Program-made: the position numbers and the translations under genes
Part shown: positions 5,679 through 38,836 of the stretch, in pieces
Numbering within the stretch: position 1 is the stretch's first letter
Layout of the letters: the number at the start of each line of letters is the position of its first letter
NCBI GenBank assembly: GCA_002897735.1
Contig: BDTW01000037.1
Location: forward strand, 1 to 38,836
Source: a bacterium BMS3Bbin13
GTDB taxonomy: Bacteria > Pseudomonadota > Gammaproteobacteria > 21-64-14
Direction of reading: 5' to 3'
DNA: 38,836 nt
Notes under the pieces: model-generated
Databases searched by the model: none
Seen by the model: only the letters and a program-made list of their open reading frames with translations
Told to the model about the DNA's origin: nothing

Positions 5679-6659
5679 ATGACCAGACAGATCTTCCGAG
5701 GGTGCCGGATTGCACTGGCTCTGGCCGGCCTCACGGCGCTGTTCGCCGGCACGGCCTGGGCCAACGCCGGGGCATCGAAGAGCGCCCCGGCGGCGCGCGC
5801 CGGGGCTCCCGTGGTACAGGTGACCGGCACGGCGCACCGCGAGGGCGGGCTGCTGTGGGTCGGTTGCGGTATCAGCAAGAAGTCCTACATGATCGCCGCG
5901 GCCAAGGCCTTCACCGAGAAGACCGGTATCAAGATCAAGGTGGAGGGCGGCGGTGCGACGCGCGGAATCCGCGATGTGGCCGCCGGCAAGGCCGACTTCG
6001 GAGGATCCTGCCGCTTCGTCATTCCCGGCATCGCTTCCGAGATGGGTGATGTCCTCAAGCCGGTGGCCTGGGATGCCCTCGTCGTGATCGCCGACAAGGG
6101 CAACCCGGTGAAGAATATCACCCTGGACCAAGTCCGCGGTGTCTATCTCGGGAAGATCACCAACTGGAAGCAGTTGGGTGGGCCGAACAAGCCGATCCAC
6201 CTGTTCGTACGTCGCGGCAAGATCTCCGGAGTGGGGCGTACCATCCGCAAACTGGTGTTCGGCAACTACAATCAGAATTTCGTGGCGACCAAGGCCTTCA
6301 GGTCCTCAGGGCCGTTGGAAAAGGCCGTGGAAAGGGATCCCGATGCGATCGCCATGACCGGTATCAGCAGTGCGCGCAAGCGCAACGTCGATATTCTGGC
6401 GTTGAACGGCAAGCAGCCGACCTATGACAACATTCGCAACGGGAAGTACATCTTGTACCGCCCCCTGTACCTCGTCATCAATCCGGACAGCCCAAAGATC
6501 GCCGAGGTGAACCGCTTCGTTCAGTTCATCTACAGCCCGGAAGGCCGTCGGGTGATTCGCCGGAACGGTGTGGTGCCCTACATGGACGCCCTGCAGTTGG
6601 TGATGAAACAGGTGGCTCAGGACCAGCAGGCCCGCGCGATGGGGCTTTATCGCCGCTGA
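5679..6659 (+). CDS. PstS-like periplasmic substrate-binding protein
   Basis: This 326-residue exported protein of the phosphate-binding PBP-like family has a signal peptide: basic start, hydrophobic stretch 11-26, probable cleavage after AWA at residue 28. Later come family-typical segments: GGGATRGIRDVAAGKADFGG, a GVYLGKITNWKQLGG block typical of PstS-like proteins, AMTGISSARKRN, and a C-terminal block ending in GRRVIRRNGVVPY. ATG 5679 has AGGAGGGAG about nine bases upstream. No ABC transporter permease or ATPase genes accompany it, which is unusual for PstS. It has its own leader after the hdrB terminator and ends just before an inverted repeat. The ligand cannot be told from sequence: phosphate is the family default, another oxyanion is possible given the sulfur-gene setting. 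Confidence 0.8.
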   Translation: MTRQIFRGCRIALALAGLTALFAGTAWANAGASKSAPAARAGAPVVQVTGTAHREGGLLWVGCGISKKSYMIAAAKAFTEKTGIKIKVEGGGATRGIRDVAAGKADFGGSCRFVIPGIASEMGDVLKPVAWDALVVIADKGNPVKNITLDQVRGVYLGKITNWKQLGGPNKPIHLFVRRGKISGVGRTIRKLVFGNYNQNFVATKAFRSSGPLEKAVERDPDAIAMTGISSARKRNVDILALNGKQPTYDNIRNGKYILYRPLYLVINPDSPKIAEVNRFVQFIYSPEGRRVIRRNGVVPYMDALQLVMKQVAQDQQARAMGLYRR

Positions 6660-28540: not shown

Positions 28541-28617
<77 letters not shown>

Positions 28618-29285: not shown

Positions 29286-29972
29286 ATGAAGCTAGTAATC
29301 CCAGAGTCGTATCACAACTCGATCAAGAAGCTCAACGAACTGAGCGATGCCGTATTGGTACCGCTTTGTGATGCCTTGTTGGATGCGCCGCCATCGTTCG
29401 TGGTCGAAGATCTCGTTTCGCACATTAAGTCGAAAGCAAAACTCGACATCAATGACGAAGATCTCGGTGAGATTGTTGGCGTGTCAGTGGCGATGTACTA
29501 CATCTGGTCAATTGGTTTCAATAAGCTTAACCATAATGAATTCGCCGCCCGCGTCGCTCTCGCTGCAAAAGGGATAGACAGTGGTCGAGATTGGTCGACA
29601 CTAGAGAAAAACGCTATTTTATTATTGGGCCTTGACAAGCCGATAGGCGTAACCGCAAAGGCCCTTGATTTGATGAGAGACTTCCAGCACGTCGTCGCAG
29701 ACATTCGAATTATTACCGATTCTAGGCCTGTGTTTGCAGCAGAAGATAGCGACAATAGTCCTGTCGCGGTCATGACCACGCACGTCTTGAAAGTGATGTA
29801 TATACGTGATAATAAACTCGAATCTTTTTATGCGGCAATGGACTGCAACGATATCCGCCACCTCCAGGCTACTCTCGAAAGAGCGCTTAAAAAAGAGGCG
29901 AGCCTACAACGGTTGGCGAGGAAAGATGAAATCTTTTGTCTCGATGCACGGGCGCTTGAGGACGAGGAATGA
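29286..29972 (+). CDS. Unknown protein A of the metallophosphoesterase unit
   Basis: The 228-residue, mainly helical, acidic protein is not recognised. The first two thirds have alternating helices with a conserved-looking VGVSVAMYYIWSIGFNKL segment (about 67-84). The last third has a beta-strand pair (VAVMTTHVLKVMYIRDNKLE) followed by FYAAMDCNDIRHLQATLERA, a strand-then-helix pattern that loosely recalls COMM domains. No signal peptide or membrane span is seen. ATG 29286 is chosen to exclude an unconvincing 25-codon extension; no clear ribosome binding site is seen. Its stop overlaps the start of the next gene by four bases (ATGA), so the two are translationally coupled. Base composition is far more AT-rich than the core genes. 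Confidence 0.75.
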   Translation: MKLVIPESYHNSIKKLNELSDAVLVPLCDALLDAPPSFVVEDLVSHIKSKAKLDINDEDLGEIVGVSVAMYYIWSIGFNKLNHNEFAARVALAAKGIDSGRDWSTLEKNAILLLGLDKPIGVTAKALDLMRDFQHVVADIRIITDSRPVFAAEDSDNSPVAVMTTHVLKVMYIRDNKLESFYAAMDCNDIRHLQATLERALKKEASLQRLARKDEIFCLDARALEDEE

Positions 29973-30913
29973 CAGATATCATCCCGCAACTGGTACAACA
30001 TCGCATCGGAAAACGCATATATTCCCCATTACCTAAAGTATGCGATTGGTCCCCCCCGCCAACTGGGGCTATTTGCAGCTCCGAGGAGCAGTGGGGTGCG
30101 TGGCTCGGTTGTCAACCGGAAGATCAAGGAAGCCGCGTTACAAAGATTGCACCCCGGGTGCTCGCGGGGATGAGCGGCTTTTACATAGTTAAAGCCCATC
30201 TCGTGAGCGGATCTGTTTATCAATGCTGGCCCTCAGTCCCAAAGTCAGGCCGAGGATCTTTAGTTTTAGTCCTCGCGTTACCTAGTGAGAACGAACCCAA
30301 TCGAATTCTCGAACTCCCTACTCCGAAAAGCAGAGGGCTGCAGCGCACCATTGCCAATAATTTAAAAGTCCCTTCCCCCCGTCCTTCTATCCTCACCACT
30401 TTTGAACCCAGCAATAGGCTGGCAGGATATCTGGTTGACGCAGTAGCGGAGCTTCGCGAGACGGAGAATAGGGACTTCCAGCGGTATGCGAAGGTTCTCG
30501 ACCACCATGATCTGCAACTCTTGGCCCACTTAGAGCAGAGTCTTTCAGGTAGAGCAGACGACTATCAAATTGACGATGCAAAAGAACATTTGCGCAAAAG
30601 TGTCAAGCGATTGATCGACACACTTGGGAGGGGTCTTCAGGGCCTTGGCATAGACGAATACGAGCTTACTCGTGCCGGAGGCAAGTTTGTTGTAAACGTC
30701 AGGGATGCGATTTTTGAGAGAATGATGGTGCGCCAGTATGATGCCAAGGATTTTCTGGAAAGACTTTATATGGAGCTCAAGCCAGTTGCGCGCTGCGGTG
30801 AATATGGGGGGCTGTGGGGCCGATTGCATCTTTGCGATGGTGAACTTTGCCTGCAAATAAATTCAATAGCGGAAACTAGGTCTGAGCCATGGACGAAGGC
30901 TATCTCTACATAA
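29969..30913 (+). CDS. Unknown protein B of the metallophosphoesterase unit
   Basis: This 314-residue protein belongs to no family I recognise. The N-terminal 130 residues are predicted mixed strands with many Pro/Gly/Trp (CSSEEQWGAWLGCQP); the middle has long charged helices (about residues 150-215); the C-terminal part ends in a strand-rich region (GGLWGRLHLCDGELCLQINS). No membrane segment or signal peptide is seen. The start overlaps gene A (ATGA), with GAGGA just upstream. The 18-base gap to the metallophosphoesterase gene and the shared strand indicate one three-gene unit. It could be a sensor or partner of the phosphoesterase; this is inference. Confidence 0.75.
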   Translation: MTDIIPQLVQHRIGKRIYSPLPKVCDWSPPPTGAICSSEEQWGAWLGCQPEDQGSRVTKIAPRVLAGMSGFYIVKAHLVSGSVYQCWPSVPKSGRGSLVLVLALPSENEPNRILELPTPKSRGLQRTIANNLKVPSPRPSILTTFEPSNRLAGYLVDAVAELRETENRDFQRYAKVLDHHDLQLLAHLEQSLSGRADDYQIDDAKEHLRKSVKRLIDTLGRGLQGLGIDEYELTRAGGKFVVNVRDAIFERMMVRQYDAKDFLERLYMELKPVARCGEYGGLWGRLHLCDGELCLQINSIAETRSEPWTKAIST

Positions 30914-30931
30914 CCACTGGCCGCCATAGCC

Positions 30932-32032
30932 ATGGAAACATTTAGATTATTTCATTTGTCTGATCTTCATTTTTCAGCTAAAGAAATCGGGTGGCGAAAT
31001 GAGATTGTATCAGTAGGGAGTTTCTTTAGCAGGTGGACCTTATCGAAACTATTTTCTGGGAAGATTTTTTATCCCTCCACCTTCGATAAGGATGTCGCTT
31101 TAGCAGCGGCCGAGTACATCTATCGTGAGCGAAACAATGTTGATGCTTTGGTAATCACCGGTGACTTGGCAACAACAGGGGATGATCAAGATCTTACCGT
31201 CGCACGAAATTTCCTTCTCGGAGATGTGCCGCCTTCGTGGAAAGGAGGCGGCTTTCTTCGATCCTACCCGATCCTTGGCTCTGGCCTGAATACGGTAATA
31301 ATGCCTGGTAATCACGATCGTTATCGGACCACCCGGCGAGCGTGGTTGCACCCAGGGGGCCAAGGCTTCGAAGTGGTTTTCGATCGTGATTGGTCCCTAT
31401 TGTCCGAGCAGCCGGGCCTAAAGGTCCACGGAGTTGGAGGGGGCGGCCGCGCTTTATCGGATCCCGACTCAGTACGTTTTTTTCAGTTTACAAAGGGAAC
31501 TGAAAGAGTGCTGATCTTTTGCGCGGATTTCACCCTAAGAGCACCGCACGATTCTTGCTACCAATCTAATTTCGGATATATGGGGCAGGGGCGCGTATAT
31601 CTGGACACCGTTGGTCTCCTTAAAGATCTAACAATGGTCGCTCGTATGTGTACGCGCCCAAAAAACGCGGTAATTTGGCTGATTCATTTCCCCCCGGAGG
31701 ATACTGACCAGCAGTGCGCAACTTGCAACAATCTGTCGTTGCTTGATAGCGAATATCTCATAGAGGCAGCTGCAGAATGTCAGGTCGATTTATTCCTGGC
31801 GGGTCATATTCATAAGCAGCGGCAATTTACGGTCCAATGCAGAGGAGATCCCATTCGCGTTCTTTGTGCCGGGACAGCTTGCTCAGTTGATGAAAATGGC
31901 GACGGAAATCGGTTTGGAAGACTAGAGTTTGATGTCTGCGAAGGGAGAGTCGGGCGACTATCTTTGCAGGATATCGCCTATAATGACCAAGATGGTTGCT
32001 TTCGGGCAACAGGTTGCATGTCAGCCATCTGA
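30932..32032 (+). CDS. Calcineurin-like metallophosphoesterase (unit C)
   Basis: The 366-residue protein has a complete metallophosphoesterase active site: D11 and H13 (HLSDLHFS), D78 (ITGDLA), N127/H128/D129 (PGNHDR), H252 (LIHFPPED) and H292/H294 (AGHIHKQ). These residues bind two metals in enzymes that split phosphomonoesters, phosphodiesters, cyclic nucleotides or nucleic acids. A stretch of about 40 residues between the first two motifs (WRNEIVSVGSFFSR...) is an insertion that might be an amphipathic or partner-binding helix. No signal peptide, so it is cytoplasmic. It is the last of a three-gene run; the substrate is unknown. The gene lies in the AT-rich island after the tRNA. Confidence 0.88.
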   Translation: METFRLFHLSDLHFSAKEIGWRNEIVSVGSFFSRWTLSKLFSGKIFYPSTFDKDVALAAAEYIYRERNNVDALVITGDLATTGDDQDLTVARNFLLGDVPPSWKGGGFLRSYPILGSGLNTVIMPGNHDRYRTTRRAWLHPGGQGFEVVFDRDWSLLSEQPGLKVHGVGGGGRALSDPDSVRFFQFTKGTERVLIFCADFTLRAPHDSCYQSNFGYMGQGRVYLDTVGLLKDLTMVARMCTRPKNAVIWLIHFPPEDTDQQCATCNNLSLLDSEYLIEAAAECQVDLFLAGHIHKQRQFTVQCRGDPIRVLCAGTACSVDENGDGNRFGRLEFDVCEGRVGRLSLQDIAYNDQDGCFRATGCMSAI

Positions 32033-32284
32033 GTGCTCCTGATTCAGGATGGTTTTGGGATGCGCGTACAGTTATTGACAGAAACTCCAAGTGGGCAGTA
32101 GCCCGTCGTCCGTCGTCTAGGCAGGTCTTCACCTGCACACGATACCGGATGTAGTGCCGGACACGATATAGGTAGGGTCTGCTCAGAAAAGTATAACTTA
32201 TTGATATAGACGCAATAATAATTGGTTATGCGGTATCTAATGATACGTAGAAAGCAAGCCAACCCCACCAAAAGCCGTGCACCT
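32033..32284. other. Intergenic region before the IS5-type remnant
   Basis: No gene is seen in 252 bases. A GCAGGT/ACCTGC hairpin with a CTTC loop lies at 32121-32136, followed by a repeated ACCGGAT/GCCGGAC motif. The stretch after about 32180 (AAAAGTATAACTTATTG...) may hold the left end of the insertion sequence, but I could not match terminal inverted repeats because the right end is lost. Confidence 0.35.
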
Positions 32285-33183
32285 ATGATCCGCTATCACA
32301 GCCACAAACAACTTTCCCTCGCAGGATTTGACTGGCCCTTCCAGAGCGCCCTGGATGAAAACAACTGCTGGGTAAAGATGAGTCAGTGTATTCCCTGGGA
32401 CGCACTGGCAGAAGGGTATTATCAAGATCTCTCCCTCAAGCAGGGGCGGCCCACCAAAGATGCTCGATTGGTCATTGGTGCGGTGATCATCAAACGCAAA
32501 CTCTGCCTGTCCGATGAAGAGACTGTCGCACAGATCCAGGAGAACCCTTACCTGCAGTACTTCGTCGGTCTGGCAGGTTATCAAATGGAGGCACCGTTTG
32601 CTCCCTCGTTGTTTGTTGAGATCCGCAAGCAGATGGGACAAGGCGTGTTTGAGATTTTTCAAGTCGCCATTATTGATGCTTTGGAAGAGGCAAAGGCGAA
32701 GAAAAAGTCACAGAGTCGAACCGGGCACAGCACATCCGAACCACTATCCAGAAGGCAGTGATGATAATTCACCAGCCTCTTCAGGCGGAACGCACCAGGA
32801 GGAGGAACTCCGGGACAAACTGATCCTGGATGCAACGGTGGCCCCACAGGTGATCCGCTACCCCACAGACCCGAGCCTGCTGGATGAAGCCCGGGAGTTC
32901 AGTGAAAAGCTCATAGACGAGCTTTATCCAAAGACGGATTGGAAGAAGAAACCGAGAACCTATCGTGAGAAAGCGCGCAAGGCATTTCGCGCCATTGTGA
33001 AACAGAGACATCCGTCTGGCAAAGTACGGCGTCGCGGAATCAAACGGCAGCTACAGTGCCTGCGTCGCAACCTGGGTCATATTGAGCGTTTGCTGGAATA
33101 CTGGCCGGAGGGCACAGCGATCCCTTTACCCCGTTGGTTACTGTACCGTTACTGGGTAATCCAGTAGGTCTATTCACAGCGCT
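32285..33183 (+). pseudogene. IS5-type transposase remnant, frameshifted and truncated
   Basis: The first part (32285-32761) is the N-terminal DUF772-like domain of an IS5/IS1182-type transposase, with segments such as GRPTKDARLVIGAVIIKRKL and QENPYLQYFVGLAGYQ. Around the A-run at 32698-32712 the coding shifts frame: the next domain (LRDKLILDATVAPQVIRYP, then KPRTYREKARKAF) continues in a different phase to 33167. An in-frame TAG there interrupts the frame, and four more matching codons (VYSQ) follow before similarity stops. The catalytic DDE core is largely missing, so the element is dead. The copy marks past mobile-element activity between the metallophosphoesterase unit and the glycosyltransferase gene. 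Confidence 0.8.
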
Positions 33184-33251: not shown

Positions 33252-33998
33252 ATGACTTCTGCAATCAAAGTTAGCTTCGTTGTGCCGGCCTTTAACGAGG
33301 AGCGTCTACTACCACTCACGCTCAGGTCCATTGTTGCCGAAATCCGTCACGCCAATTGCCCTGCTGAAGTCATCGTCGTTGATGACGGAAGCACCGATTC
33401 TACCTCTGAAATCGCTAGACAATTCGGGGCACTTACTTTAAGTCACGCAGGTAGAGCCGGCCTAGTGAGCGCCCGAATGACCGGCTTCCATGCGGCGCGC
33501 GGAGAGTTGATCGCTAACGTCGATGCCGATACTATCATACCAAAAGGATGGCTTCAAAGCGTGTTAACCGAATTCGCGCACAATCCTTCTTTGGTCTGTG
33601 TTAGTGGGCCATATTTTTACAATGACTTATCTCGACCCGTCCAGATGGCCGTACGGCTGTTTTATTGCTTCGGGTATTTTCTATATTTGCTAAATCAATT
33701 TGTCTTCCGGGTCGGCTCGCTTGTGCAGGGTGGCAACTTTGTAGTGACGAAGCAAGCGCTGCTTCAAATAGGCGGATATAGCGAGGGTTTCAAGTTTTAT
33801 GGAGAGGATACGGACCTTGCGCGTCGATTAATCGCTGTCGGTTATGTCAAATTTACGTTCGGCCTTTTGGCCTCCTCATCCGGCAGGCGTTTGCGTAGTG
33901 AAGGTCTTCTTACGATGGGTCTCCGGTATGCATTGAACTTCTTTTGGGCCACATGGCTTCACCGACCTTTTACGAACGAGTGGAAGGATATCCGCTGA
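33252..33998 (+). CDS. Family 2 glycosyltransferase
   Basis: The 248-residue GT-A-fold enzyme transfers a sugar from a nucleotide donor. The N-terminal VPAFNEERLL, the VVDDGSTD motif (43-49), the metal-binding DAD (91-93) and the late GEDTDLARR acid motif (184-192) are all present. A hydrophobic stretch (QMAVRLFYCFGYFLYLLNQF, 131-150) may touch the membrane. Length is short but complete for soluble GT2 members. It stands alone, with no other polysaccharide genes near, flanked by the IS5 remnant and an IS3 scrap, so it was probably carried in with or split from another locus. No strong ribosome binding site is seen before ATG 33252. Confidence 0.88.
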   Translation: MTSAIKVSFVVPAFNEERLLPLTLRSIVAEIRHANCPAEVIVVDDGSTDSTSEIARQFGALTLSHAGRAGLVSARMTGFHAARGELIANVDADTIIPKGWLQSVLTEFAHNPSLVCVSGPYFYNDLSRPVQMAVRLFYCFGYFLYLLNQFVFRVGSLVQGGNFVVTKQALLQIGGYSEGFKFYGEDTDLARRLIAVGYVKFTFGLLASSSGRRLRSEGLLTMGLRYALNFFWATWLHRPFTNEWKDIR

Positions 33999-34074
33999 TA
34001 GCTATGCGAGTCGCCTTGCCATTTGCAAAATGGATGGTTTTGTTCTCTTTAAATATGGGAAATTGGAGAAAATA

Positions 34075-34524
34075 ATGCGTAAAATTAAACCAGAAGATAA
34101 AGAGAAGATTTCGATCTTGGCAATGGAATACGGTTCATTGCGTGGCCATATCAATGCCAGAATATCCAGTATAGTTCAGCTGATTGCTGTTTCCGTAGCG
34201 ATTGCGGCATTATTCCCGCGACCATTTGCGGCGCACATCATTATAATCGAAGTCATCATTGTCCTTGTTCTTTCCGTATTCGTACTTCTAGTGCTAGATA
34301 TAATCGAGGCTGGGAAACAGGTACAGCGTTTGGAAGCCAAGATAAATCTGTGTGCAAACGAAAAGCTACTTATTTGGGAAACGGAGCTTGGCGGCCTCCT
34401 AAGCTTCAGACGAAGCGTCAGACGCGTCAGATGCCTTTGGGTGAGGATTAAGTCGATGCTTGTCAGGTGCGGAAGGAGAGTAACAGGGGGCGGCAAGGGG
34501 GTGAGGGATCTCGAAATACAGTGA
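34075..34524 (+). CDS. Small membrane protein with two spans, unknown
   Basis: The 149-residue protein has two membrane segments: about residues 27-45 (ISSIVQLIAVSVAIAALF) and 51-75 (AAHIIIIEVIIVLVLSVFV). A cytoplasmic-looking basic C-terminal half follows (LSFRRSVRRVRCLWVRIKS). Start ATG 34075 is chosen because GGAG lies six bases upstream; an earlier in-frame ATG at 34030 lacks one. The final 10 to 15 codons may belong to foreign sequence, because an IS3 scrap begins right at this point in another frame. The family is not recognised. Confidence 0.6.
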   Translation: MRKIKPEDKEKISILAMEYGSLRGHINARISSIVQLIAVSVAIAALFPRPFAAHIIIIEVIIVLVLSVFVLLVLDIIEAGKQVQRLEAKINLCANEKLLIWETELGGLLSFRRSVRRVRCLWVRIKSMLVRCGRRVTGGGKGVRDLEIQ

Positions 34525-34592
34525 AGAGTTCAAAGAGCAAGCGGTACGAAAGATGATGGCCCCGAATGCGATGTCAGTGGTGCAAGGTAAGT
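34505..34592 (+). pseudogene. IS3-family orfA fragment
   Basis: In the frame through 34514 the DNA encodes KYSEEFKEQAVRKMMAPN, followed by AMSVVQ, the start of the helix-turn-helix domain of IS3-family OrfA transposases. No start codon is present, and the reading continues only to nonspecific sequence after about 34592, where it stops matching. It is a dead scrap of about 30 codons. Confidence 0.6.
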
Positions 34593-34912
34593 GCCCACGA
34601 ATCGACACCTATCAATTCAGGCAATAACCGGTCAATACTTTCTCCTGTCCCCAACACAGGAGGGGAGATAAAGGGGACGGAGGGAATAAATAATATTCCC
34701 TCCGTCCCCTTTACCCCAACTTCGAAAAGCCCGCCCTGGGCACATTGGTTGTCAGGCCGGAGGATCGCCCGGCGTTTCTGATGGCGTGGTGCCTATGGCC
34801 AATGTAGAAACGGGGGTCGTCCCAAGCAATGGCTCCCTTGCGGGACGCTAAGCTATGGATGCTTCCACGGCACTGAAAATTGAGCGGTGTGAATGCTCCA
34901 TTCATAGCGACC
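34593..34912. other. Intergenic region with a long hairpin
   Basis: No supported gene. Apart from the inverted repeat at 34670-34712 (separate entry), the stretch 34720-34900 shows only weak open frames on the minus strand without family character. Confidence 0.5.
34670..34712. repeat. Perfect 18-bp inverted repeat
   Basis: AAAGGGGACGGAGGGAAT (34670-34687) and ATTCCCTCCGTCCCCTTT (34695-34712) are exact reverse complements with a 7-base loop AAATAAT. The motif resembles palindromes that are found beside REP-associated tyrosine transposases, but no such gene is in the window. It may alternatively end transcription. Confidence 0.8.
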
Positions 34913-35401
34913 ATGCTCTCAAATGTCGAAATATACTTTGCCATTGCTCGGGAAGCACATGCCGAGATGAAGAGGCTAGAGGGTACATCGCGCCGCTCGA
35001 AACCGGATGGTAGCCCAGGGCATGTTGTAACTTACGATCCCGCCCGCCGCTCTTTAAAACAAGCCATGATCGCTATTGCGTTCTCCGGCATGTACTTTGA
35101 GGCTGCAGTGTACCTGGTAGCTCTGAAGAAATTCCCAGAAGGCGAGGCTAGAAAAATTGATCGCCTCCCATATGAGGAGCGGCTGCGGGTGCTTGGAATA
35201 GCTGACCGGGCGCTATTGGATGGCGCGCAGACCCTCAGAGAAGCACGGAAGGAACTTGTTCATGAAAAGGCGCTTTCGCCTGCGGCATTGGAATCGGTTA
35301 CGTTTGGCTACGCACAGGAGATGGCGGATCACGCGTGGGGTTTCATCAATCAGCTTCACGGGGCCCTAACTGTGGCGGGCGGTGCGGGTGGGCAAATCTA
35401 A
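34913..35401 (+). CDS. HEPN-like protein of unknown function
   Basis: The 162-residue all-helical protein has an R-x4-H motif, R112 to H117 in REARKELVHEK. That is the signature of HEPN-fold ribonucleases. Segments VEIYFAIAREAHAEMKRL (5-22) and QAMIAIAFSGMYFEAAVYLVA (50-70) fit the family's helices. HEPN proteins often act as toxins or RNA-cutting arms of defence systems, but many are inactive, and I see no nucleotidyltransferase (MNT) partner next to it. ATG 34913 is chosen; a TTG at 34880 could add 11 residues. The stop is followed directly by a 22-base palindrome. Function is inferred from the motif only. Confidence 0.6.
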   Translation: MLSNVEIYFAIAREAHAEMKRLEGTSRRSKPDGSPGHVVTYDPARRSLKQAMIAIAFSGMYFEAAVYLVALKKFPEGEARKIDRLPYEERLRVLGIADRALLDGAQTLREARKELVHEKALSPAALESVTFGYAQEMADHAWGFINQLHGALTVAGGAGGQI

Positions 35402-35423
35402 AGCCCGAACCATGGTTCGGGCT
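35402..35423. repeat. Perfect 22-base palindrome after the HEPN-like gene
   Basis: AGCCCGAACC and GGTTCGGGCT are separated by AT. It starts one base after the stop codon, so it may act as a terminator or stabilise the mRNA end. There is no T run. Confidence 0.65.
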
Positions 35424-35478
35424 ACCGTGTTCAGATCCACCACGCCAGCGCCGGCTATCGCAACGTCAGGAGCGCAGT

Positions 35479-35781
35479 ATGACTGCGGAGAACTTCGCGT
35501 ACTCAATTGCATCTATTGGCGGCGGCCTCCTTGGTGGGCTGGCTATCACCGGAATAATATCGCGCCTTTTTCTGCGAAAGACAGGAAGATCCAAGAAGGG
35601 AGCGATGAAGGCATGCGCCTACACCGCGGCCATCGCGCTAGTGATCGCCAGTCTTAGCATGGGGTTGCGAGATGCTCTCGTCACATATCTTCCTCCTCTT
35701 GCACTGTGGCTGGTATTCGATCTGATGCGATCCGCGCCGCAAACGGCGAATCCTCGTAAGTCCGGGAAAGCCGGGGAGTGA
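35479..35781 (+). CDS. Small membrane protein, unknown
   Basis: The 100-residue product has a glycine-rich first span (SIASIGGGLLGGLAITGIIS, 9-28) and two further hydrophobic stretches (about 44-60 and 68-82), with basic loops between (RKTGRSKKGAMK). No signal or known family. ATG 35479 lies after GGAGCGCAGT, where GGAG is a weak ribosome binding site at eight bases. It may be co-transcribed with the genes downstream. Confidence 0.5.
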   Translation: MTAENFAYSIASIGGGLLGGLAITGIISRLFLRKTGRSKKGAMKACAYTAAIALVIASLSMGLRDALVTYLPPLALWLVFDLMRSAPQTANPRKSGKAGE

Positions 35782-35865
35782 ATGACCCTCTAAGGTGCCA
35801 CTGCGCATGCCTAAACCGCATGGGTGTGGGTGCTCGGAATAACCGCTGCGGTCTGGAGCCCAGAC

Positions 35866-36045
35866 ATGAAAATAATTGTTTGCGCCATTCTCGCTTATTT
35901 ACTTACGGGCGTTTCTCAGGTAATAGAAGATCTGAGCGGTCGCACGATAGATCGCCCAATGTGGGCCATGGGACCAACGCTATGGGAAGCGATCTTTGTG
36001 GTGCTTACTTGGCCTACTCGACTGCTGCGGGTGTACCGCCAATGA
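35866..36045 (+). CDS. 59-residue membrane protein
   Basis: The short product has one clear span at residues 2-20 (KIIVCAILAYLLTGVSQVI) and a second hydrophobic stretch near 42-50. Start ATG 35866 is supported by GGAG eight bases upstream; the frame extends back to a GTG at 35824 without support. Its stop overlaps the next start (ATGA), so the two proteins are coupled and may act together. Confidence 0.55.
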   Translation: MKIIVCAILAYLLTGVSQVIEDLSGRTIDRPMWAMGPTLWEAIFVVLTWPTRLLRVYRQ

Positions 36046-36875
36046 CTGCCCTTGAGAAGTTCCTTGATGGAATTACACCATCATACGTGTCTGGCCGTGC
36101 AAAAGAACTCGATGAGGACATGAAGGTCCCGTTCGCCCAAACTATGTCTGTTTTTCTTTTCTCACGGTTATTCACAAAACACCTGGATTCTTGCGCTCAA
36201 GAATTTCCTGAACCATTGAAGACGAATTGGGAGTTCCCTCACGACCGGATATTCACTGAGGTGGTGTCTTTTTACTTTTTCGTCCTATTGCGGGAGTATT
36301 TTGAAAAACGCCAAATAGAATATGATGAGAATGGGCGCGATGACCATGGGGACGGGGAAGAAGACGGCAGACTGAAAGATCCCTATACTTCATCGCTGGT
36401 CAAGGCGATAAGTCTCGCCAGCGTGCTCATCCATAGATACGCTGATTTCGGCCCCCCCAAAGAGTTTGTCCGGAACAGGGCTTTCTCCTACTCGTTACCC
36501 ACCAATAAGGACAACCCTGTGGATCTTCTTGAACGGCTTATCTTTAAGAGCTGGAACCCTGATAAGAGCGGGAACACCCGTTTGGGTATTTCGGAACCGT
36601 TCCTTCCGATCATGACCACTATCGCGGCGATGCCGATTGAGGCCGTTCAGAAATCATGCAAGGGGTTATACGAAGACCTTGCTCGGGGCCCCAATACTCG
36701 GGTTTCGCCCAAGACCAAAACAAAACCCTCAGCTGATGGGCCACCAGGATCTGGCCTCCGTGAGGTTTCGGTGTGGGGCGGTTTCACCGTGTGGCAAAAA
36801 CTCATCCGGATCGTAGTCGCTTTGGCGATCCTCGCCCTGCCATTCTTGGCTGTATTTATGCTAGCAAAGATCTAG
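36042..36875 (+). CDS. C-tail-anchored protein of unknown function
   Basis: The 277-residue protein is hydrophilic and largely helical, with a low-complexity acidic stretch near residue 105 (DDHGDGEEDG) and one hydrophobic C-terminal segment (LIRIVVALAILALPFLAVFM) that should anchor it in the membrane with its bulk in the cytoplasm. No family is recognised and no catalytic motif is seen. It overlaps the 59-residue membrane protein gene by four bases (ATGA), the usual sign of coupled subunits. Confidence 0.7.
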   Translation: MTALEKFLDGITPSYVSGRAKELDEDMKVPFAQTMSVFLFSRLFTKHLDSCAQEFPEPLKTNWEFPHDRIFTEVVSFYFFVLLREYFEKRQIEYDENGRDDHGDGEEDGRLKDPYTSSLVKAISLASVLIHRYADFGPPKEFVRNRAFSYSLPTNKDNPVDLLERLIFKSWNPDKSGNTRLGISEPFLPIMTTIAAMPIEAVQKSCKGLYEDLARGPNTRVSPKTKTKPSADGPPGSGLREVSVWGGFTVWQKLIRIVVALAILALPFLAVFMLAKI

Positions 36876-37066
36876 AACCGCAAGCTGATACTGCTTGTAG
36901 TACGCAGGCGCACCAGACTCTGTGAATCGGCCCTGGACTCGTGGACGCTATTTGGTTTAAGTCAGGCGGTGGCTCATCACGACGGGTAGTTAGGTTACAT
37001 TTTCGAATTGACGGGATGTCGCTGTTTTCTCTGCAAAGCGGTTTCGCGCAACAAACGGGGGAAGCA

Positions 37067-37777
37067 ATGTCGTGGGTAATCGGGGGCGTCCTTATTGTTT
37101 TAATTATGCGTTTTTTCTGGCAGAGCTATATCCATCCTGCCAATGCTAGGGCCCGCCAAGCTGCGGGCATGAACTGGGTCGCCGTGGGACGACGCGATAA
37201 CCCCAAAGGGGGCAAAGATGTTCTCCTTGGACGGGGCAGGCTTGTGTCCAGGATTGACTGGCGCACCGAAGAAGTGCACCTCATTGAGCCGTATGAGGCA
37301 GGGCCCTTCGCTGACTACCTTACACTTGAACGTTGGTTAACCCTGAAGGAGAAAGAAGCGCACGATGTCCTAGATGCCCACGCCCGCCGGAAATACGCTT
37401 TCTATCCAATGGCAAGGGCGCAAGAGGACACGCCTTCCGAAGCGGGGACTCGGACGGAGGATGATACGGAGGTAGATCCTGGAATTGAGGAGTTATATCA
37501 GTTCACGGTTTCCGTTCAAGCACGGTTGCGTGAGGGACCGGGCGGCGAAGAGTTACATGATATTGATGAAACGTTTCGTCTGAACAGCCCTGAATACCTG
37601 CACATTACTACCGAACTATTTCGAACCGCAATCGATCTGGGTAAATCTCCAACAGAAGCCGCTACCTGTTTGGTCATGGCGTTCGCCGCCGCTAATGAAG
37701 AAAACGCCCTGGAACCGGTTACACGTGTGATCGTGTATTTACGCGGAGTCATTACCTATTGGCACAACCACGCTTGA
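37067..37777 (+). CDS. N-terminally anchored protein of unknown function
   Basis: The 236-residue protein has one N-terminal membrane span (WVIGGVLIVLIMRFFW, 3-18) and a hydrophilic remainder, with a strand-rich middle part (GRLVSRIDWRTEEVHLIEP) and a helical C-terminal part (EYLHITTELFRTAIDLGKS). I chose ATG 37067 for the GGGGGAAG upstream; ATG 37016 in the same frame would add 17 residues. The family is not recognised. A 191-base gap separates it from the gene before, so co-transcription is uncertain. Confidence 0.65.
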   Translation: MSWVIGGVLIVLIMRFFWQSYIHPANARARQAAGMNWVAVGRRDNPKGGKDVLLGRGRLVSRIDWRTEEVHLIEPYEAGPFADYLTLERWLTLKEKEAHDVLDAHARRKYAFYPMARAQEDTPSEAGTRTEDDTEVDPGIEELYQFTVSVQARLREGPGGEELHDIDETFRLNSPEYLHITTELFRTAIDLGKSPTEAATCLVMAFAAANEENALEPVTRVIVYLRGVITYWHNHA

Positions 37778-37889: not shown

Positions 37890-38836
37890 CTATGCGACCT
37901 CCTGCTGGTCGGCTGAGGCATCGGACGGTGGGTTGATCCAGACTGCCTCCGGGGGGCGGTTGGGTACGGGCCGTTTGCCCTTAAAGCGTGCGGGGTTGGC
38001 CTCGTAGGCGGCGTCCAGGGTCCGTGCGCGGGCTTCGAGGATCTCGTCGGCACGGCCGTAGTGGACGTCTTTCGGTGCCAGGTAGGCGATGCCCGAGTGG
38101 CGGTGCTCGTGGTTGTACCAACGGAAGAAGGCTTGGCAGTGGGTCCTGGCGTCCTCCAGGGAACCGAAACACCGGGGGAAGCCGGGGCGGTACTTCAGGG
38201 TCTTGAACTGAGCCTCGGAGAAGGGGTTGTCGTTGCTCACGTGGGGGCGGCTATGGGTTTTGGTCACGCCGAGGTCTGCCAGCAGCAGGGCCACTGCCTT
38301 GGAGGTCATGCTCGAGCCCCGGTCGGCGTGCACGGTGAGCTGGCCGCGGGCGATACCCTGCTTGGTGCAGGTCTCGCGGATGAGCTTTTCGGCCAGGGTG
38401 GCCGACTCCCGGGTGGCCACCATCCAGCCGACCACGTAGCGGCTGAACACGTCGAGGAGGACGTAGAGGTAGAAGTAGGTCCATTTCGCCGGTCCCTTGA
38501 GCTTGGTGATATCCCACGACCACAGTTGATTGGGACCGGTGGCCAGCAGCTCCGGCTTGGTGTAGAGGGGGTGGCGAAGCTGGTTGCGTCGCTCCCGTGC
38601 CTCGCCGGCTTCCTTCAGGAGACGATACATCGTGCGCACCGAGCAGAGGTAGCGGCCCTCCTCGAGCAAGGTGGCGTACACGTTGTGGGGCGAGGCATCT
38701 ACGAAGCGCGGACCGTGCAGCAGATCCAACGTGGTCTGGCGCTCTTGCTCATCGAGCTTCAACGGCGGTACCGGGCGCGATAGCGCCTCGGATGCCGGTT
38801 GGGCGGCTTGGCTCCGATGCCGGTACAGCGTCGCCC
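37890..38836 (-). mobile_element. IS3-family transposase OrfB, cut by the window end
   Basis: The open frame runs without a stop to the right edge and so is partial at its 5' end; a TTG at 38762 is not needed as a start. It encodes the integrase-core domain of IS3-type transposases with the catalytic DDE residues: D in LWSWDITKLKG, D in VHADRGSSMTSK, and E in NPFSEAQFKTLKYR. The upstream orfA would lie beyond 38836. TGTC at 37848, about 40 bases after the stop codon on the minus strand, may be near the element's right end, but no matching left end is in view. The high GC content differs from the neighbouring island genes, suggesting separate arrival. Confidence 0.85.

Follow-up and report, generated by a model that had tools for sequence, protein, structure and literature searches.

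In the Commander assembly of eukaryotes a ring of COMMD proteins is joined to Retriever. One of the Retriever proteins, VPS29, has a phosphoesterase fold. A study of Commander from 2023 reported no COMMD homologs in bacteria or archaea and placed the family on the eukaryotic stem (PMC10187114). Bacterial COMMD-like proteins are already known from a structure deposit of 2025, in which MBK5214510 of a Flavobacteriaceae bacterium was solved as an octamer (PDB 9q6a, 9q6c and 9q6d; released 2025-10-01). Within the literature covered, which lacked preprints and most subscription papers, no paper on the cellular role or the genetic partners of bacterial COMMD proteins was found.

Two groups of metallophosphoesterases are of relevance here as well. 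The first comprises the class III cyclic-nucleotide phosphodiesterases, like Rv0805 and Icc. The second is found in the anti-phage systems DS-8 and DS-9, which were described with DefensePredictor and in which the catalytic residues of the phosphoesterase are essential for protection (PMC13092281). Below we describe a three-gene unit (A-B-C) that combines a COMMD-like protein with a protein without a recognised family and a phosphoesterase, a combination that to the above extent (i.e. within literature without preprints and most subscription papers) is undescribed. In two unrelated bacteria, the locus provides a COMMD-like protein with two genetic partners, one of them a phosphoesterase that appears to be active, and in this way the role of these proteins becomes a testable question.

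Organization and acquisition of the unit

The unit lies in a window of 38,836 nucleotides, by which we mean the whole stretch of DNA that was analyzed. All three genes have open frames on the plus strand: gene A (29286-29972) encodes a bacterial COMMD-like protein of 228 amino acids, gene B (29969-30913) a protein of 314 amino acids with a homolog at a second locus, and gene C (30932-32032) a calcineurin-like metallophosphoesterase of 366 amino acids (PFAM: PF00149). Genes A and B overlap by the sequence ATGA (29969-29972) and 18 bases separate the stop of B from the start of C, as the original prediction, made from the bare sequence, had stated. The start of A at 29286 is supported by the alignment with the solved homolog 9q6a, which begins at the same 'MK..IP'.

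The G+C content over the unit is around 0.49-0.52, versus 0.61-0.73 upstream, and the drop comes after a tRNA-Met gene (anticodon CAT; 28541-28617, plus strand; identified with ARAGORN) that forms the border of the AT-rich stretch. The difference is larger at third codon positions, where A, B and C have a G+C content of 0.46-0.54 and the host rpoD gene in the same window one of 0.87. Downstream and outside of the unit, at 32222-33167 (plus strand), we found an IS5-type transposase gene (DUF772; PF05598, E 2.7e-12) that is broken into two overlapping frames and, over a short stretch of DNA, matches the gene of an IS5 transposase. Both the AT-rich stretch behind a tRNA gene and a dead insertion sequence beside the unit had been predicted, and both were recovered. 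The genome set contains two genomes of the host's order, and the other one, G156, is of the same genus. In G156 the upstream gene clcA and the tRNA-Met gene are kept, with 83-96% identity; the DNA beyond the tRNA gene is unrelated, and a search of this genome for A, B and C yielded none of them. Considering the deviating composition, the tRNA border, the unrelated DNA in G156 and the broken transposase downstream, the A-B-C unit looks horizontally acquired. A phage-type integrase or an attachment repeat was not found within the window.

Gene A

Neither Pfam, NCBIfam, PHROGs nor PADLOC provided a family for A, and initially both A and B had been described as matching nothing known. For A this description has to be revised. 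A phmmer search with A alone recovered PDB 9q6a at E 5e-8, over residues 1-209, and a two-sequence profile of A recovered the same entry among the solved structures at E 4.6e-18. The homology to MBK5214510 thus extends over the helical part as well as the COMM-like domain, at around 24% identity. The match of A to 9q6a scored 34 bits, whereas the best of 1000 shuffled sequences reached 6.3, and the fragment of A at the second locus matched 9q6a independently with 51 bits. Judging from sequence, A is a relative of the bacterial COMMD-like proteins in both domains, that is, a helical N-terminal part and a C-terminal COMM-like domain (around residues 119-210).

A fold search gave a similar picture. 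The model of A was built from a two-sequence alignment and its confidence is low (pLDDT 41), so that the search offers support, short of proof. Ranks 1 to 9 of the 350,542 chains were all COMMD structures, with 9q6a and 9q6c at the top and six human chains of the CCC complex/COMMD ring (8f2r, 8p0w) at ranks 4-9. The fact that the equally poor model of B gave no fold match below E 0.2 indicates that such COMMD matches do not come from any weak model. In the model of A (pLDDT 41) the C-terminus is predicted to fold as strand-strand-strand-helix, the order in which the COMM domain has been described (PMC6089597). The COMM fold is a sheet of three strands with a helix as its cap. A would therefore be alike in fold to the eukaryotic COMMD1-10 proteins, as far as a model of this pLDDT allows; unlike these, it has no match to the Pfam COMM profile. 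In fact, this profile (PF07258) had no match in the genome of the window up to E 10, and 9q6a itself lacks a hit too. Since PF07258 does not reach A, we file A as bacterial COMMD-like, outside the eukaryotic family. The octamer has been solved for MBK5214510, whereas A is known from sequence; by analogy with this relative, A most likely forms a homomeric ring. As a COMMD-like protein, A is more suggestive of a ring scaffold than of an obvious sensor.

Gene B

For B the initial description stands. No family was found in Pfam, NCBIfam, PHROGs or PADLOC, comparison with the PDB by sequence and by fold yielded nothing significant, and genome contigs searched with only B as the query gave no match. 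Structure prediction, which had been proposed as a check on both proteins, thus led to COMMD structures for A (pLDDT 41) and to nothing for B. The sole recognisable relative of B is its counterpart at the second locus. The alignment of the two places the conserved part at around residues 131-296, and in a low-confidence model, made from this two-sequence alignment, the conserved part is predicted to consist of helices followed by a strand pair. We consider B a candidate adaptor or sensor.

Gene C

The assignment of C to PF00149 (E 1.2e-8; 36.1 bits, cut-off 21.5) is clear, and the DxH, GD, GNHD, H and GHxH motifs are all present. The statement that C keeps all metal-binding residues was confirmed, as C and three aligned relatives all share the ligands D11, H13, D78, N127, H128, H252, H292 and H294. 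On basis of these motifs C looks catalytically intact. A profile of C and its relatives, compared to the solved structures, gave Rv0805/Icc as the best match (E 3.5e-4) and VPS29 only at E ~1. C shares the core and the metal motifs with Rv0805 and Icc and differs from them by long inserts and by its conserved operon partners. VPS29 was considered as the closest relation of C and rejected, C being nearer to Rv0805/Icc.

The original prediction also regarded the surroundings as typical for a defence module, and here we found nothing that shows defence. PADLOC returned weak matches to C and none to A or B. The NCBIfam model DS9_1_antiphage (NF053862) matches C at E 1.4e-9, with 37.3 bits against a cut-off of 420, and with a score far below the curated cut-offs a membership of C in DS-8 or DS-9 was rejected. 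The likeness to these systems, in which a metallophosphoesterase is the essential catalytic part, appears distant and at the level of the superfamily only. The partners differ as well: the unit contains no HAD phosphatase or NACHT domain and has the COMMD-like A and B instead. A Pfam search of A and B for the HAD domain of the DS-9 partner was negative.

A second A-B-C locus and other relatives of C

To find relatives, genome contigs were scanned with an alignment of C and its two first relatives, and in this way three contigs (L006, L007 and L008) were found. L006, a contig of a Betaproteobacteria MAG, carries the three genes in the same order, on one strand and with the same tight spacing, at 27-33% protein identity to the window. 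The search for this order in other genomes, which had been suggested at the outset, thus gave a positive answer: the three genes are neighbors in another genome. The C homolog aligns over 367 amino acids (29%, E 7e-41), the B homolog, located between A and C, over 168 (27%, E 2e-9) and the C-terminal part of the A homolog over 92 (33%, E 2e-15); the latter extends past the start of B, the same arrangement as in the window. An insertion sequence of around 0.8 kb, bounded by 18-base inverted repeats at 5707-5724 and 6511-6528, splits the A gene of L006; downstream of it, the frames of B and C are open. A frame of 70 residues before the insertion sequence sits where the N-terminal part of A belongs; by itself it matches A or 9q6a weakly. 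Given an interrupted A next to open B and C, A may not be required in every case. As in the window, the unit in L006 is AT-rich (0.45-0.52 versus 0.65-0.69 downstream).

The distribution of the genes is sparse. C was found in 3 genomes out of 398 from the phylum, its own included, and within the class (369 genomes) in its own genome only. Of the 250 and 100 genomes searched around L006, none but the L006 genome had C, and for A the window's own genome was the only one among 398 and 200 genomes. The profile of A had three further matches at E 0.03-0.04 in other genomes, which we took as noise. Collections of plasmids, phages and viruses contained no relatives. Two A-B-C loci are thus known, with A interrupted in one of them. 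As the same trio recurs in the same order in unrelated hosts, A-B-C is a real conserved unit, and a very rare one.

Elsewhere, relatives of C are found in the absence of A and B. In genome G320 (L010:2460-4765) a close relative of C lies directly behind another gene, with a frame of up to 424 amino acids, and in a Magnetococcales MAG (L007:7354-8942) one lies directly behind a gene of 216 amino acids, with an ATGA overlap. These neighbors match neither A nor B. We considered both as divergent forms of B and rejected them, as their scores were below those of shuffled controls. The two loci may represent parallel units of two genes, built around the same branch of phosphoesterases, and given the other neighbors in G320 and the Magnetococcales MAG, the partners of this branch seem exchangeable between loci. 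L008 contains an ordinary phosphoesterase, and A and B are not nearby.

Possible function of the unit

On balance, we consider it slightly more likely than not that A, B and C constitute one horizontally spread accessory assembly, with A as a ring, B as an adaptor or regulator and C as an active phosphoesterase. In such an assembly A would dimerise through its COMM domain and close into a homomeric ring, as its octameric Flavobacteriaceae relative does. B, which would be translationally coupled to A via the ATGA overlap, would most likely bind the ring and either link it to C or regulate C. C itself would depend on metal for its phosphoesterase activity and most likely cleave phosphodiesters in a nucleotide or nucleic acid; the assembly as a whole might serve in anti-phage defence or stress signaling. 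The solved relative suggests the ring, the conserved operon structure suggests the complex and the motifs of C suggest phosphodiester cleavage, whereas a defence role is suggested by the context and by DS-8/DS-9. Against the assembly count the pLDDT of 41 for the A model, the silence of PF07258, the number of loci (two, with A interrupted in one) and the C relatives with other neighbors. The evidence also agrees with the original idea, in which B or A would sense something and C would cleave a phosphodiester.

In a stricter form, the unit would act against phages: the A ring or B senses infection and switches on C, which then destroys a nucleotide, a signal or a nucleic acid, so that phage growth stops. 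The foreign composition, the rare and patchy distribution and the position behind a tRNA gene, with the unit absent from the same-genus G156, all fit, and so do the seemingly exchangeable partners of the C branch and the essential role of phosphoesterases in the proven systems DS-8 and DS-9 (PMC13092281), to which C is similar at the superfamily level. However, no known defence gene was recognised beside either A-B-C locus, C is far under the curated cut-offs for DS-8/DS-9, and tRNA-linked islands carry much other than defence. We regard an anti-phage role of this kind as a serious candidate that falls somewhat short of an even chance.

More doubtful, yet still to be reckoned with, is a complex outside defence, in which the COMMD-like ring would organise a phosphoesterase. 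The enzyme would either adjust a second messenger of the host or, at a membrane or another site, process nucleotides or the head groups of lipids. This reading agrees with the cyclic-nucleotide phosphodiesterases being the best solved relatives of C, and with the reports that eukaryotic COMMD proteins act in membrane trafficking and that some bind acidic lipids (PMC6089597). Genes for general signaling would, however, not be expected to be as rare, patchy and foreign in composition as these.

A COMMD-like gene next to a phosphoesterase gene makes a striking parallel with Commander. The parallel can be taken further, as a COMMD ring, an adaptor and a partner with a phosphoesterase fold would amount to a free-standing bacterial form of the same principle, perhaps working in immunity and with an ancestry common to the eukaryotic sorting machine. 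We consider this very improbable. Of Commander only the COMMD-like part is recognisable in the unit, and CCDC22/93, VPS35L and VPS26C are not. C, with its complete metal motifs and a match to VPS29 only at E ~1, does not resemble VPS29 in sequence, and B cannot be recognised as a CCDC protein. Bacterial operons, moreover, often include phosphoesterases. We regard a common ancestry of the two assemblies as unlikely.

A small operon with little space between its genes, located in mobile DNA, would also suit a toxin-antitoxin-like unit, with C or B as the toxin and A neutralising it. Such a function has little to recommend it, considering that A resembles a ring scaffold and shows no likeness to an antitoxin. 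In addition, the split A of L006 is followed by open frames for B and C, which would be hard to explain for an antitoxin gene, barring a silencing effect of the insertion on B and C as well. Least probable of all, though only one other A-B-C locus was found and C relatives occur without A and B, is that three accessory genes with only an island in common became neighbors by chance, as order, strand, tight spacing and the A/B overlap are alike in two distant genomes at 27-33% identity.

Other genes in the two islands

The AT-rich stretch of the window continues beyond the broken transposase (33252-37777), with a family 2 glycosyltransferase gene at 33252-33998 and genes for proteins without a family at 34030-34524, 34880-35401, 35778-36875 and 36941-37777. 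A transposase gene whose product contains an rve integrase core lies near the end of the contig, on the minus strand (37890-38762). At the second A-B-C locus we observed two genes upstream of the unit (L022:9878-12290): an apparent remnant of a TnsA-like endonuclease gene (PF08722, E 7.5e-4, under the cut-off) and a gene with an NYN domain. They hint that a Tn7-like element shaped the island there.
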